From Chryseobacterium sp. (GTDB lineage: Bacteria > Bacteroidota > Bacteroidia > Flavobacteriales > Weeksellaceae), in the NCBI GenBank assembly GCA_027492795.1, contig JAPUEB010000035.1, forward strand, positions 127,221 to 191,220: a DNA stretch of 64,000 nt, given 5' to 3'. The translations under genes were made by a program, and so were the position numbers. The notes below the pieces were generated by a model that made no database searches, had not been told where the DNA came from, and saw only the letters and a list, made by a program, of their open reading frames with translations. Within the stretch, counting starts at the first letter, position 1. Each line of letters opens with the position of its first letter. Of the stretch, positions 10,344-58,991 are shown in pieces.

Positions 10344-11300
10344 ATGGAATATTTAGAATTTGAAAAACCAATTCAGGAACTTATGGAGCAATACCAAACC
10401 TGTTCATTGGTAGGCGAAGAAAGCGGAGTGGATGTAAAACTCGCCTGTTCGCAAATAGAAGATAAAATAATCGAAAGAAAAAAAGAAATCTACGGAAATC
10501 TTACGCCTTGGCAAAGAGTTCAGCTTTCCCGTCATCCAGACCGTCCTTATACACTGGATTTTATTAACGGAATTGTAGATAAAGGCAGTTTTCTGGAACT
10601 TCACGGCGACAGAAATTTTGCAGATGATCCTGCGATGATTGGCGGATTGGCAACGATTGACGGACATCGTGTAATGCTCATCGGAACGCAAAAAGGACGC
10701 ACAACCAAGGAAAGACAAAAAAGAAGATTCGGGATGAGCAATCCTGAAGGCTACAGAAAAGCTTTGCGTTTAATGAAATTGGCAGAAAAATTCAGCATTC
10801 CTGTAATTTCTTTAATCGACACTCCCGGAGCTTATCCCGGATTGGAAGCCGAAGAACGCGGACAAGGAGAAGCCATCGCGAGAAATATTTATGAAATGAC
10901 CACGCTGAAAACGCCTATTTTTGTCTATATCGTGGGTGAAGGAGCAAGTGGTGGAGCTTTGGGAATTGGCGTTGGAAATAAAGTGTATATGTTGGAAAAT
11001 ACTTGGTACACCGTAATTGCCCCTGAAAGTTGCTCTTCAATTTTGTGGAGAAACTGGAACCATAAAGAAGATGCCGCAAACGCTTTGAAATTGACACCAA
11101 ACGATGCTTTTGAACATAAATTTATCGACGGAATTATTGAAGAACCACTTGGTGGAGCGCATTACGAACCACAAGTTGCGTTTGACAACCTGAAACATTC
11201 GATTTTACAAAATATTAAAGCTTTTTCCAGTTTTTCTGGAAAGGAACTGGAGCAGCAAAGACAGGACAAGTTTATTGCGATGGGACAGTTTAAAGGGTAA
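10344..11300 (+). CDS. accA: Acetyl-CoA carboxylase carboxyltransferase subunit alpha
   Basis: The 318-aa protein has the usual AccA length. With AccD it forms the carboxyltransferase that moves the carboxyl group from biotinylated AccB to acetyl-CoA to give malonyl-CoA for fatty-acid synthesis. Diagnostic segments are [10 protein letters not shown] at the N-terminus, the [12 protein letters not shown] region, [32 protein letters not shown] and the [20 protein letters not shown] core. The crotonase-like fold follows from the family. It has its own promoter. Its stop codon lies inside the first unit of a 12-bp minisatellite, so the end of the gene abuts repeat DNA. Confidence 0.97.
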
Positions 11301-11331
11301 GGTTGAGGGTGAGGTTGAGGGTGAGGTTGAG
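11296..11331 (+). repeat. 12-bp minisatellite at the accA 3' end
   Basis: Three exact-length tandem units lie at 11296-11307, 11308-11319 and 11320-11331. The unit is GGTGAGGTTGAG; the first differs at one base (GGTAAGGTTGAG) and contains the accA TAA stop. The tract is purine-rich on the plus strand, like the tracts at 24592, 27224 and 55139. Confidence 0.85.
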
Positions 11332-11356
11332 GAAAATCCCTCAATAAAAATAAAAA

Positions 11357-50475: not shown

Positions 50476-50620
50476 GAAGGCCTGAAAGACCTTAATCATT
50501 AGCATTTGTACAAAGACATTTTCGGATTTGTGAAGCCACGAAGTGGCGAAATCATCAGCCAAGGGTAAAGCCCTTAGATAAATAATCTCACCGAATTGCG
50601 GAGCGCTGAAGGCGCGACAT
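50476..50620 (-). repeat. REP-like module, copy B (downstream of the Y1 transposase)
   Basis: Read on the minus strand: a GCGCC...GGCGC-type hairpin near 50600, AAGGGCTTTACCCTT (50561-50575), GCCACTTCGTGGC (50535-50547) and GGTCTTTCAGGCC (50479-50491). It is in inverted orientation to copy C on the other side of the transposase gene. Confidence 0.7.
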
Positions 50621-50621
50621 C

Positions 50622-51074
50622 CTAATCCCAAACATACCTTTCATCATATTCAATATTGTATTTTTTCAGAAAAGCCAAAAACTCTTCTTGAAAAGATTTC
50701 TTTTTATGGTGTTCCTCTTGATTTAAAATATATTTCTTTACAATTTCTATTTCTGTAGGATTTACTGAAAATGCTCCATAACCGTTTTGCCAATAAAAAC
50801 TTTCAAACTCCTTTCCTTTGGTTTTAATCCATTTTGAGGAATTGGTTTTTACTTTTTCAATCAAATCCATTAAAGCAATTTTTTTTGATAGTAAACAAAG
50901 AATGTGAACATGGTCTTGATGTCCACCAACTTGAATGGGATTACATTCCAAATTTTTACAAATTCCACCTAAATACGAAAACAACTCATCTTCAATTTCC
51001 TTTGAAATCAAAGGTTTGCGATGTTTTGTACTAAAAACTAGATGAATGTAAATTTTATTTAATGATTGTCCCAT
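50622..51074 (-). CDS. tnpA: Y1 (IS200/REP-associated) tyrosine transposase
   Basis: The 150-aa protein has the compact HUH nuclease fold of Y1 transposases. It starts SLNKIYIHLVFSTKHRKPLI; the HUH motif is H55-V-H57 inside GGHQDHVHIL; a WIKTKG segment follows, and the catalytic tyrosine is probably the one in VKKYILNQEEHH (near residue 118). It appears intact. No TnpB/IscB partner is present. It is inserted, in the same orientation, between the two halves of split metH and is flanked by inverted REP-like modules. That arrangement fits a REP-associated (RAYT-type) gene better than a classical IS200. Confidence 0.85.
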   Translation of the reverse strand: MGQSLNKIYIHLVFSTKHRKPLISKEIEDELFSYLGGICKNLECNPIQVGGHQDHVHILCLLSKKIALMDLIEKVKTNSSKWIKTKGKEFESFYWQNGYGAFSVNPTEIEIVKKYILNQEEHHKKKSFQEEFLAFLKKYNIEYDERYVWD

Positions 51075-51082
51075 TTTTATGA

Positions 51083-51170
51083 TGTCGGTCTTTCAGACCT
51101 CCCTAATTCCTTTCATTTCATTTTTCCATAGGGCTTCACCCTATGCTTTTGATGACGCCACTTCGTGGCT
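51083..51170 (+). repeat. REP-like module, copy C (upstream of the Y1 transposase)
   Basis: Perfect hairpins GGTCTTTCAGACC (51087-51099), CATAGGGCTTCACCCTATG (51127-51145) and GCCACTTCGTGGC (51157-51169) lie just upstream of the transposase start. The same set appears inverted in copy B and partly in copy A. Confidence 0.75.
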
Positions 51171-51224
51171 TTTTCTATATCAAATCAATATTTTCAATAA
51201 TTTATATATCAAAATAGTAAATTG

Positions 51225-52277: not shown

Positions 52278-52312
52278 TTAAAAAGAAAGTTGAGAAATCA
52301 ACTGAATTTTTC

Positions 52313-52413
52313 GTTATCTATCCCAAAAACTTGAGTAGAATGTAGCACCTTCTTCGATTCCGAAGGGTTGCCAAGGTTTCACAGAGTCTAATCTCTCCAC
52401 CTTTCTTGATAAC
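52313..52413 (-). ncRNA. SAM-I riboswitch (S-box)
   Basis: Read on the minus strand, the segment begins GTTATCAAGAAAGGTGGAG, then has GTGAAACCTTGGCAACC, a CTTCGGAATCGAAG hairpin, AAGGTGCTACATTC and ends GATAGATAAC. These are the conserved S-box segments. P1 forms between GTTATC (52413-52408) and GATAAC (52318-52313). It should bind S-adenosylmethionine and repress the methionine-synthase gene downstream. Between it and the ATG lie a weak AGTTGA/TCAACT hairpin with a T-run (52288-52303) and the start-codon hairpin. Confidence 0.92.
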
Positions 52414-52443
52414 ATTTCGCGTGTGAATGAACAAATCTGGCTG

Positions 52444-52523: not shown

Positions 52524-55130
52524 ATGAATGCAGAACAGGAACGCTTACAACATCCCGATTGGAAAAATTGGGGCCCTTATGTGAGCAACAGACAATGGGG
52601 AACCGTGCGCGAAGACTACAGCCCCAACGGAAATGCGTGGGGATATACTTCCTATGAAGACGCTCTCAGTCGCGCTTATCGCTGGAACGAAGATGGAATT
52701 GCAGGAATTTCGGACAGCAAACAGCGGCTGTGTTTTTCTTTTGCTTTTTGGAACAAAAAAGATAAATATATCAAAGAACGGTTTTTCGGATTGAGCAATT
52801 ATCAGGGAAATCACGGGGAAGATTTGAAGGAAATTTTCTATTATTTGGACAATACACCCACTCATTCTTATATGAAAATGGTGTATAAATATCCGATAGA
52901 AGCCTTTCCTTATGATGAATTGGTGAAAGAAAACGGAAATCGTGGAAAAGAAGCACCCGAATTTGAACTCGTTGATACTGAGATTTTTGAAAAAAATAAA
53001 TATTTCGATATTTTTATTGAATACGCAAAAATCAACCACGATGATTTTCTAATTCGTGTCACTGTAGTAAACAGAAGTTCAGAAAAAGCGCCATTAATAA
53101 TACTTCCGACGCTTTGGTTCCGCAATAATTGGAGTTGGGGATACGGAACTTACAAACCTCAACTAAAATCTTCGGTAAACGGAATTATCGATATTGAACA
53201 CGAAACCATTCCTTTAAAAAAACTCTATTCAAGAAACACTGACGCAAAATCCATTTTTTGTGATAATGAGACGAATACAGAGAAAATTTTCGGAAAAGAA
53301 TCTGACAATGAGTTTTTCAAAGATGGCATCAACAATTATCTTGTTCATGGCGAAAACACGATAAATCCTGAAAATTTTGGAACAAAAGCCTCATTTTTAA
53401 TTGACACTGAAATTGAAGCCGGAGAAAGCAAAACTTTTGATTTTAGGTTGAGTCCGCACGAAATGCACGATGCCTTTTTTGACTTCGACGAAATTTTTAG
53501 TTTAAGAAAAAAAGAAGCCGATGAATTTTATGGAGAAATTCAATGCGAAATTACGGATGAAGATGAAAAAAATGTGCAACGACAGGCTTTTGCAGGACTT
53601 CTTTGGAACAAGCAATTTTATCATTATAACGTTTCAAAATGGTTGAACGGTGACCCGAAATTTGAAGCACCCCGAGATTTTGACAGTTATGTGAGAAACA
53701 AAGAATGGGCTCACATGCAAAATAAGGACATCATTTCGATGCCCGATAAATGGGAATATCCGTGGTTCGCAACTTGGGATTTAGCGTTTCATTGCGTTCC
53801 GTTTTCTTTGATTGACAGTGGTTTTGCGAAACATCAACTCCGTTTGCTTACCAAAGAATGGTATATTCATCCGAATGGTCAACTTCCGGCTTATGAATGG
53901 GATTTCAACGATGTAAATCCGCCTGTTCACGCGTGGTCAACTTTCCGGGTTTTTAAAATTGATGAAAAAATAAATGGAAAACCCGATATTGCTTTTCTGG
54001 AAAGTGTTTTTCAGAAATTATTGCTGAATTTTACGTGGTGGGTAAACCGAAAAGATAAAAACGACAACAACATTTTTGGCGGTGGATTTCTAGGTTTAGA
54101 CAATATTGGTGCATTTGACCGAAATATGCAGTTTAAAAACGGCGAACATCTGGAACAAGCCGACGGAACTTCGTGGATGGCGATGTTTGCACTAAATATG
54201 ATGCGTATTTCGATGGAATTGGCGCTTTACAATCCTGTGTACGAAGATATGGCGATAAAATTTTTCGAGCATTATCTCTACATTGCCGAAGCGATGGAAA
54301 AAATTGGCGACAGAGACGGACTTTGGAACGAAAAAGATGGGTTTTTCTACGATGTTTTGCAAAAAAGTGACGGCGAACCTGTGAATTTGAAACTCCGCAG
54401 TATCGTTGGATTAATTCCTCTTTTCGCCGTAGAAATTGTAGAGCACGACCTTCTTGAAAAACTTCCTGGATTTTCCACACGAATGGAATGGATTCTGAAA
54501 AACAAACCGGAACTCGCTAAACTGGTTTCACATTGGGAAGTGGAAGGAAAAGGCAGAAAACATTTGATGAGTATCCTCCGAAAAACACGACTTTCAAGGA
54601 TTTTAGAAAAAATGCTGGACGAAAAAGAGTTTCTCTCCGATTATGGAATCCGCTCAATGTCAAAAATCTACGAAGAAAATCCGTTTGAATTTGAAGTGGA
54701 CGGACAAAAATTCATCGTAAAATATCTTCCTGCCGAAAGCGACAGCCGAATGTTCGGCGGAAACAGCAATTGGCGCGGTCCGATTTGGTTTCCTATCAAC
54801 TTTTTGATTGTAGAAAGTTTGCAGCGTTACCACTATTATTACGGTGAAAGTTTGCAAGTGGAGTTTCCCGTTGGAAGCGGCGAAATGCGAAATTTGGAAT
54901 TTGTTTCAGATGATTTGAGCAACCGTTTAAAATCCATTTTCCTGAAAGACAAAGAAGGAAACCGTGCCTTCAACGGCGGAAACGAACTCTTCAACCACGA
55001 TGAATATTTCAAAGATTACATAATGTTTTACGAATATTTCGATGGCGATAATGGTCGTGGTGTTGGAGCGTCACATCAAACGGGTTGGACTGCGACTGTT
55101 GCGAAGTTGATTCAGCCGAGGCTTTCTTGA
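52524..55130 (+). CDS. GH63-type glucosidase
   Basis: The 868-aa protein lacks a signal peptide and is probably cytoplasmic. It starts ERLQHPDWKNWGPYVSNRQW, as in bacterial MGH1-like/GH63 glucosidases. The (alpha/alpha)6-barrel segments visible are EYPWFATWDLAFHCVPFSL, PAYEWDFNDVNPPVHAWSTF, GGGFLGLDNIGAFDRN and SNWRGPIWFPINFLIVESL. These motifs surround the acidic catalytic pair of the family. It should hydrolyse alpha-glucosides or related sugars; the precise substrate is not predictable. Its stop codon is 8 nt before an inverted-repeat cassette. Confidence 0.85.
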   Translation: MNAEQERLQHPDWKNWGPYVSNRQWGTVREDYSPNGNAWGYTSYEDALSRAYRWNEDGIAGISDSKQRLCFSFAFWNKKDKYIKERFFGLSNYQGNHGEDLKEIFYYLDNTPTHSYMKMVYKYPIEAFPYDELVKENGNRGKEAPEFELVDTEIFEKNKYFDIFIEYAKINHDDFLIRVTVVNRSSEKAPLIILPTLWFRNNWSWGYGTYKPQLKSSVNGIIDIEHETIPLKKLYSRNTDAKSIFCDNETNTEKIFGKESDNEFFKDGINNYLVHGENTINPENFGTKASFLIDTEIEAGESKTFDFRLSPHEMHDAFFDFDEIFSLRKKEADEFYGEIQCEITDEDEKNVQRQAFAGLLWNKQFYHYNVSKWLNGDPKFEAPRDFDSYVRNKEWAHMQNKDIISMPDKWEYPWFATWDLAFHCVPFSLIDSGFAKHQLRLLTKEWYIHPNGQLPAYEWDFNDVNPPVHAWSTFRVFKIDEKINGKPDIAFLESVFQKLLLNFTWWVNRKDKNDNNIFGGGFLGLDNIGAFDRNMQFKNGEHLEQADGTSWMAMFALNMMRISMELALYNPVYEDMAIKFFEHYLYIAEAMEKIGDRDGLWNEKDGFFYDVLQKSDGEPVNLKLRSIVGLIPLFAVEIVEHDLLEKLPGFSTRMEWILKNKPELAKLVSHWEVEGKGRKHLMSILRKTRLSRILEKMLDEKEFLSDYGIRSMSKIYEENPFEFEVDGQKFIVKYLPAESDSRMFGGNSNWRGPIWFPINFLIVESLQRYHYYYGESLQVEFPVGSGEMRNLEFVSDDLSNRLKSIFLKDKEGNRAFNGGNELFNHDEYFKDYIMFYEYFDGDNGRGVGASHQTGWTATVAKLIQPRLS

Positions 55131-55138
55131 GTATGAGA

Positions 55139-55650
55139 GTTAGTGAGTGAGAGGGTTTGAGGGTTTGAGAGTGGGAGAGTTTGAGAGAATTAAAAAAATA
55201 TTTTATGGCTACAATTAAATTCCATACAGAACTTAAAGTTTATCAGAAATCTTTTGAAGTTGCGATGAAAATTTATCATTTGTCATTCAGTTTTCCAAAA
55301 GATGAAAAGTATTCTCTTACAGACCAAATTAGACGTTCATCCCTTTCTGTATCAGTAAATATCAGCGAAGCATGGGGAAAAAGGAAATATCCCAAATCTT
55401 TTGTAGCAAAATTAACCGATGCAGATGGTGAAGCACGAGAAACTCAGTCTTGGTTGGAATTTGCACTTGCTTGCAACTATATTTCTACAGAACTTTTTGA
55501 GGAATATAATAACGAATATCATCAAACCCTCGGAATGCTGGTGAATATGTCCAATAATTCAGAAAAGTGGTCGTCTTTTAAACCACTTGGTGAAAATTAG
55601 ATTTCAAAACTCTCAAACCCTCCCACTCTCAAACACTCAAACACTAACTC
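55139..55650. mobile_element. 512-bp inverted-repeat cassette carrying a four-helix-bundle gene
   Basis: The left end (55139-55189) starts GAGTTAGTG and contains a 24-bp segment (55166-55189) that is inverted, with one mismatch, at 55610-55633. The right end finishes CACTAACTC (55642-55650), the exact complement of the left end. The arms are built of GAGGGTTTGAG-like tandem units. Only one gene, the four-helix-bundle protein, lies inside. The cassette separates two convergent genes, and its right arm supplies the last codons and stop of the OsmC gene. No transposase or obvious target-site duplication is seen. Confidence 0.65.
55205..55600 (+). CDS. Four-helix-bundle protein (S23/IVP family)
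   Basis: Starting at 55205 the protein has 131 aa and matches the 23S rRNA-intervening-sequence protein family: ELKVYQKSFEVAMKIYHLS (helix 1), YSLTDQIRRSSLSVSVNISE (helix 2), FVAKLTDADGEARETQSWLE (helix 3) and a last helix with EEYNNEYHQTLGMLVNM. Related four-helix proteins include Avd of diversity-generating retroelements. No reverse transcriptase is nearby. The flanking inverted repeats recall rRNA intervening sequences, but here outside rRNA. An upstream TTG (55181) lies in the repeat and is not used. Confidence 0.9.
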   Translation: MATIKFHTELKVYQKSFEVAMKIYHLSFSFPKDEKYSLTDQIRRSSLSVSVNISEAWGKRKYPKSFVAKLTDADGEARETQSWLEFALACNYISTELFEEYNNEYHQTLGMLVNMSNNSEKWSSFKPLGEN

Positions 55651-56056
55651 CATTCACAAAAACCTCATACAAAACCTCCACATTCGGTTCTAAAGTTTTG
55701 GAAACCGAACAATATTTTTCAAAGGAAAGTTCGGCTGCTTTTTTTGCTTTTTTAGAATCTATTTCTCCTTCGAGTAAAAATTTTACGATGATTTTTTTGA
55801 AAGGTTTTGCTTCATCAATTTGAACTCTTTCGCCTTCAACTTCAGCAGAAAATTTGGCAATTTCCTGACGTTGCTTTTTCAAAATTGAAACAATGTCAAT
55901 TCCGCTACACCCTGCAACTGCCATTAAAACGCTTTCCATCGGAGAAACGCCTTTTGCTCCCGGTTGTGATGTATTGTCTAAAAGTATTGAATTTCCTGCA
56001 CTGTTGGTGCATTCAAAAAGAAATTCGTCGTTGATGCGGTTGAGTGTAATTTTCAT
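55637..56056 (-). CDS. OsmC family protein
   Basis: The 139-aa protein has the OsmC/Ohr fold: PGAKGVSPMESVLMAVAGCSGIDIVSILKK carries the single peroxidatic-type cysteine (near residue 51) and the glutamate of the family. A C-terminal LSFEKYCSVSKTLEPNVEV segment supplies the usual second-cysteine region. It probably reduces organic hydroperoxides in the cytoplasm. The last residues (GVSV) and the stop codon are encoded by the right arm of the inverted-repeat cassette, so its C-terminus may have been altered by insertion. Confidence 0.87.
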   Translation of the reverse strand: MKITLNRINDEFLFECTNSAGNSILLDNTSQPGAKGVSPMESVLMAVAGCSGIDIVSILKKQRQEIAKFSAEVEGERVQIDEAKPFKKIIVKFLLEGEIDSKKAKKAAELSFEKYCSVSKTLEPNVEVLYEVFVNGVSV

Positions 56057-58771: not shown

Positions 58772-58783
58772 ATTTTTATTTTT

Positions 58784-58991
58784 ACCACAAAAGGCACAAA
58801 AGTTTTTCTATTATTTGAGATGGAACTGATTGCGTTTTACCAGCTCACAAAAGTTTAAAAAATCAAAGATTTTACTTTATTATTTTCTTATTTTTTTACC
58901 ACAAATGCACAAAAGTTTTTTTATTATTTGAGGTGGAACTGATTGCGTTTTACCAGCTCACAAAAGTTTAAAAAATCAAAGATTTTTACTT
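58784..58991. repeat. Tandem duplicate of the ACCACAAAAG repeat family, copies 3 and 4
   Basis: Two units start at 58784 and 58898 (period 114). Both run ACCACAAA..GCACAAAAGTTTTT, TTATTTGAGRTGGAACTGAT, GCGTTTTACCAGCTCACAAA and AGTTTAAAAAATCAAAGATT with only a few differences. The family is shared with 10111-10264. This fills most of the 297-bp gap 58772-59068; no gene is seen there. Confidence 0.85.

Follow-up and report, generated by a model that had tools for sequence, protein, structure and literature searches.

S23/IVP proteins are common, and no function has been assigned to them since their discovery in rRNA intervening sequences. A 64,000-nucleotide (nt) stretch of a Chryseobacterium sp. 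genome (contig JAPUEB010000035.1, positions 127,221 to 191,220; hereafter the window) raises the question of what a gene of this family is doing in a compact cassette at 55131-55650, enclosed by long inverted repeats. The answer that we favour, with somewhat better than even confidence, is that this cassette belongs to a widespread S23 class, in which a four-helix-bundle gene lies between inverted arrays of 6-9-nt repeats characteristic of the protein subfamily, and that it would be the mRNA or operon counterpart of the 23S rRNA intervening sequence (IVS), with the S23 protein recognising its own repeat. The cassette has three parts:

55131-55187, + strand: left arm, a G-rich array of the degenerate 8-nt unit GTTTGAGA, without C (Tandem Repeats Finder, TRF; inverted match to the right arm).
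55205-55600, + strand: intact gene for an S23/IVP four-helix-bundle protein of 131 amino acids (PF05635; TIGR02436; AlphaFold2 prediction; PDB entries 2gsc, 2rld and 4dwl).
55607-55650, - strand: right arm, the left-arm array inverted, C-rich on the + strand, about five units (TRF; inverted match).

The sequence-only reading of this DNA had proposed an S23-type gene between long inverted repeats, and this was borne out at both levels, since the arms were verified and the gene is complete, with a full-domain match to PF05635 (111.4 bits, cut-off 33.8) and a match to TIGR02436 (106.2 bits, cut-off 24). It is the sole open reading frame (ORF) between the arms, where no Y1 transposase was found. 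The AlphaFold2 monomer prediction gives a four-helix bundle (predicted local distance difference test, pLDDT, 94.5), whose nearest structural neighbours in the PDB are the S23 structures 2gsc and 2rld, followed by the Avd structure 4dwl; the Avd/bAvd sequence models match the protein only below their cut-off. Additionally, profile searches returned no enzyme-family match, and conserved basic residues are found at R43, R44, K59 and R60. Solved S23 relatives have five chains per PDB entry, and Xcc0516 is a homopentamer (PMC4990558), the pentamer being known from these relatives and not from the window protein.

The left arm begins immediately 3' of the stop codon of the upstream gene, and TRF reported a period of 8 in both arrays, with 7.4 copies over 55129-55187 on the left and 4.9 copies over 55607-55645 on the right. 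The exact complement that had been noticed at the two ends was recovered (GAGTTAGTG from 55137, its complement from 55642), as was the inner block of 24 nt with one mismatch, in which 55164-55187 pairs with 55610-55633. The longest ungapped inverted pair extends over 53 nt with 81% complementarity. In a separate comparison the arms scored 58 and the best control 55, none of 3000 window position pairs at equal spacing scoring as high. A long stem is predicted for the cassette RNA (-136.8 kcal/mol, z=-4.8). The window arms are degenerate tandem 8-nt arrays, not fixed transposon ends.

The same organisation was found well beyond the window, and inverted repeat arrays around S23 are a rule of the family, not one odd cassette. 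The S23 gene had been described as a single one, which is true of the window site, whereas the genome holds 13 such genes, 12 of them above the Pfam cut-off. All 13 lie between short-repeat arrays with a different unit each time, judged by eye to be inverted in 12 cases and direct in one (L020), and strong inverted flanks were detected by score at 11 of the 13. Within the host bacterial family, 131 of 148 genomes carry an S23/IVP gene. A survey of 212 S23 loci was drawn from the genome, its family, its phylum and a named collection; it covered about ten phyla (Bacteroidota, Cyanobacteria, Verrucomicrobiota, Planctomycetota, Chloroflexota, Nitrospirota, Cloacimonadota and others), and 95 other ORFs from the same loci served as controls. 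In this comparison, the inverted-flank score was enriched at S23 loci (nominal p=2e-27), as were tandem arrays upstream (p=4e-25) and downstream (p=1e-27), and the direct-flank score was not (p=0.37).

Clear arrays were present at 137 loci, mostly with a period of 8, 7 or 6; the median arm comprises 5.3 units and spans 39 nt. Arms that belong to one locus usually resemble each other: their periods match in 68 of 78 loci, against 26 expected, and their units have a median similarity of 0.87, whereas loci drawn at random with an equal period reach 0.43. The arms are also polarised, the upstream one being G-rich and the downstream one C-rich in 94 of the 111 clearly skewed loci, with the opposite arrangement in only 2. 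Cyanobacterial S23 arms read GGGGAGCA. Among close orthologues the arms are conserved at shared sites. Below about 70% protein identity, the two arms within a locus usually resemble each other more closely than they do their counterparts in another species, a tendency that is not decisive overall (27 of 48 pairs) and whose raw test for concerted evolution was confounded by adjoining coding sequence.

The relation between repeat and protein was evaluated with pairs of loci that share no neighbouring genes, within one bacterial family of similar base composition, the host family. At 60-75% protein identity, unit similarity was 0.66 against a null of 0.24 (standard deviation 0.05), and the same period was found in a fraction of 0.94 against 0.47, with none of 1000 permutations as high in either case; the excess of equal periods was also seen at 40-60% identity. 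Judged from these sequence comparisons, the unit sequence and period of a locus tend to be those of its protein subfamily, even where the sites are unrelated. The L014 subfamily, for example, is associated with a 6-nt GGTTRA unit in seven genera and at several different sites, and relatives of the window protein have mostly 8-nt units with GAG or GGG cores. Since proteins this far diverged should be accompanied by non-coding DNA in which substitutions have reached saturation, the match between unit and protein suggests maintenance, kinship among the loci being ignored in this argument.

The cassettes are mostly oriented with host transcription. Among loci with neighbours on both sides, 153 of 177 cassettes are located between co-directional genes, with S23 transcribed in the same direction. 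The window cassette does lie between convergent genes, as had been noted, but this arrangement is not typical and occurs at only 7 of the 177 loci. S23 genes have also been reported inside cas operons, e.g., between cmr3 and cmr2 (PMC3936711), which fits insertion into operons.

Arrays are not confined to the cassettes. Counts derived from pattern and DNA searches of the genome demonstrated that arrays of three studied units occur at many sites free of S23, the CCGAAG pattern giving 88 matches and its reversed control none. Of 40 classified intergenic array sites, a few of which are cassette arms, 38 share the polarity of the arms, the sense strand being G-rich where the array follows a stop codon and C-rich where it precedes a start codon; this count is exploratory, as it comes from simple gene calls on a small sample, with a rule framed on the first unit and then counted on all three. 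In the window itself, an S23-less array of the L014-subfamily unit, GGGTGAGGTTGA, occupies 11294-11332 (TRF 11298-11332) and begins at the stop of an accA-like gene (10344-11300). Elsewhere in the genome, inverted pairs of arrays 50-150 nt apart (G000:C34:36987-37192 and G000:C20:46228-46322) resemble two-armed forms without S23.

How the cassette came to its present site was approached through its two neighbours:

52524-55130, + strand: upstream neighbour, an ORF of 868 amino acids, glycosidase-like by a name read from the sequence, syntenic with the OsmC gene in relatives.
55637-56056, - strand: OsmC-family gene, downstream and convergent, with its 3' end overlapping the right arm (PF02566, synteny).

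The same convergent gene pair occurs in many genomes of the host family. When the DNA around OsmC was examined in 29 relatives, a related S23 gene was absent near OsmC in all 29, and in 23 of them the upstream gene adjoins OsmC with no S23 gene between. The earlier account would have been contradicted by an S23 gene at this site, with diverged or absent inverted repeats, in all relatives together with a lack of similar-ended copies elsewhere; 23 relatives are S23-free here, and copies with related ends exist. In the relative with the closest proteins (G084, 84% and 88% identity), only 42 nt separate the two 3' ends and no array is present, and the nearest empty site is too diverged from that of the window to define a target-site duplication. 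In most other relatives, the short intergenic region opens with an S23-less TAATGAG-like array after the upstream gene. One further relative (G295, locus L047) carries in this gap an S23-less inverted repeat of the type seen in the window cassette, with GTTTGAG/CTCAAAC arms, beside a run of GTA repeats, possibly a remnant or a gene-free form of the cassette. The simplest reading of these comparisons is that the cassette was gained in the host lineage, at a site on which arrays would also settle alone. The OsmC stop, as the sequence-only reading had stated, does lie in the right arm: the protein ends ...VNGVSV, followed by a TGA within GTTTGA. The C-termini of OsmC differ in relatives, in which the reading frame continues past the stop point of the window gene. 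In the window gene, the last part of the OsmC reading frame has given way to the right arm.

The cassette had further been regarded as an element related to the 23S rRNA IVS that had come to lie outside rRNA. The kinship stands, through the S23/IVP family, and so does its lineage-specific presence at the window site, but not the idea of one element that escaped from rRNA with characteristic terminal repeats. The cassette is located between two protein genes, outside 23S rRNA and thus not in the position of an IVS, and no rRNA was detected in the window by Rfam at the gathering threshold. None of the S23 loci read was recognisably within an rRNA gene, although no systematic screen was made, and a location outside rRNA looks usual for S23 cassettes.

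In the explanation favoured here, the cassette would be carried in the host operon transcript as an intervening sequence, and its arms would pair into a long RNA stem that could be cleaved by RNase III, as in 23S rRNA. The comparisons of unit and protein suggest that S23 probably recognises its own repeat, likely as RNA. The five chains of each solved relative and the homopentameric Xcc0516 make one repeat per subunit a natural idea, and an S23 ring might read the array at about this ratio (around five units, 39 nt per arm), as the trp RNA-binding attenuation protein (TRAP) does with tandem GAG triplets. Recognition of the array by S23 would explain both the lasting match between unit and protein and the same-unit arrays scattered genome-wide in fixed polarity. 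Binding, excision (processing) and movement of the cassette are inferred. A broader proposition, which we put forward tentatively and hold to be rather unlikely, is that S23/IVP proteins form a general repeat-reading class, in which the pentameric ring of each subfamily would read its own 6-9-nt repeat as RNA and thereby create or maintain the cassette that encodes it, along with dozens of array tags marking the ends of genes.

Several observations weigh against these views. Four flank tests all fail at 15% of the 212 loci, and at least one is passed by 19% of the controls; some loci (L096, L146 and L020) have direct instead of inverted arrays; and the p-values of the survey exaggerate independence, because the loci share descent. 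The figure of about five units per arm is only a median within a wide spread of 3.5-14. Outside the host family, a clear link between unit and protein is confined to pairs of 60-75% identity, and none is seen at 50-60% or above 75%. Moreover, a raw comparison of flank 5-mers shows no excess at protein identities of at least 45%, whereas array-folded unit profiles are positive, so that the result depends on the measure chosen.

Other explanations account for part of the data. The arrays could be dispersed simple repeats of an ordinary kind that reach gene ends through a process of their own, with S23 settling between pre-existing arrays and no mutual recognition. This would agree with the S23-less arrays found at many sites for each unit, often right after stop codons, and with the TAATGAG-type array that follows the same upstream gene in many relatives. 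However, G084, the closest relative by protein identity, has no array at the site, both arms of a locus usually share one unit despite the many unit types per genome, and in the host family unit and period go with the protein subfamily even where the sites are unrelated; we therefore consider this account unlikely, while giving it some weight. The tendency of solo arrays to follow stop codons, and the position of the window arms against the 3' ends of both convergent neighbours, would also suit simple regulatory hairpins that serve the flanking genes as terminators or stabilise their mRNAs. This is improbable given that most cassettes lie between co-directional genes, that the window arms stand about 400 nt apart and enclose an ORF, and that the unit sequence tracks the S23 subfamily.

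Mobility by means of a helper was also considered. A transposon or miniature inverted-repeat transposable element with fixed shared ends was rejected because the ends vary by locus, even in a paralogue that is 77-80% identical (L010), and a single mobile cassette with conserved ends was discarded, as ends vary between S23 loci. If a host transposase acting in trans, such as an IS200/Y1 enzyme resembling the transposases associated with repetitive extragenic palindromic (REP) sequences (RAYTs), moved the cassette as a non-autonomous element, the arms would form the ends of that element and S23 would be carried along as a passenger. The genome has seven Y1 transposase matches, six above the cut-off, including one with REP-like palindromic ends 4 kb from the cassette, and S23 itself lacks an enzyme-family match. 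Nevertheless, the ends of that Y1 element are palindromes of another kind, S23 arms differ by locus and do not behave as fixed recognition ends, and the strong co-orientation with host genes would be unexpected from plain DNA transposition without selection, so that we attach little credence to this route. Even less probable is movement by reverse transcription, with a reverse transcriptase supplied in trans and S23 acting like the Avd of diversity-generating retroelements. Its appeal lies in Avd (4dwl) being the next structural neighbour after S23 proteins and in the orientation bias with transcription, but no PF00078 match was found in the genome despite its 13 S23 genes, a result that is not absolute, since the assembly is about 97% complete.

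The Y1 (IS200-like, RAYT-like) transposase gene near the cassette (50622-51074, - strand) lies within 50500-51190, between imperfect inverted ends with the palindrome GCCACGAAGTGGC; it is a separate REP-like element, set between two ORFs of a split metH-like gene. An S-adenosylmethionine (SAM) riboswitch (RF00162, 78.5 bits) is found upstream of this metH-like gene at 52311-52415 on the minus strand. Additionally, an intergenic tandem duplication of 113 nt (1.9 copies, 95% matches) occupies 58779-58991.

For a protein family of this standing, the link to repeats suggests recognition and offers a first concrete test of its function. If each S23 subfamily is tied to a specific repeat, genome sequences reveal its likely ligand, and binding and processing become directly testable. 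Such a tie would also provide a protein partner for several intergenic short-tandem-repeat families that have so far been without one. If the more general repeat-reading proposition were true, many such families of cyanobacteria and Bacteroidota would owe their origin to S23, with the 23S rRNA IVS as a special case. Within the open-access literature searched, S23 is described in connection with rRNA, diversity-generating retroelements and CRISPR, and short tandem repeats for Xanthomonas, Nostoc and Beggiatoaceae, with no text joining both.

Among known systems, the 23S rRNA IVS of, e.g., Coxiella and Leptospira shares with the S23 cassettes the protein family, the short cassette and the inverted-repeat ends that form a long RNA stem, which is predicted here. 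In Coxiella, the inverted repeats form a 28-bp stem that RNase III cuts in vitro, and tandem heptamers (GACAGAT) precede the S23 ORF (PMC4990558), so that the S23 family may have had arrays from early on. Unlike the IVS, the cassettes described here would have mRNA or an intergenic transcript as their host, and their arm units differ by protein subfamily. The Avd protein has the same fold (4dwl, template modelling score 0.74 normalised to the query), but no reverse transcriptase was found in the S23-bearing genome, which sets the cassettes apart from diversity-generating retroelements. The Xanthomonas GGGAATC repeats and the Nostoc heptamers are 7-8-nt intergenic repeats near the neighbouring 5' ORF, often in inverted pairs in Xanthomonas (PMC4692102). 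They resemble S23 arms in unit length and intergenic position, whereas no text was found tying them to S23. Comparable 6-9-nt short tandem repeats of cyanobacteria are named STRR. REP sequences and RAYTs likewise combine a protein family with dispersed cognate repeats; however, RAYTs are Y1 transposases acting on palindromes, whereas S23 lacks a catalytic domain and the repeats that accompany it form tandem arrays. TRAP is an oligomeric ring that reads tandem short RNA repeats, and S23 may share this ring-on-repeats mode, although the folds are unrelated and the likeness is one of analogy only.
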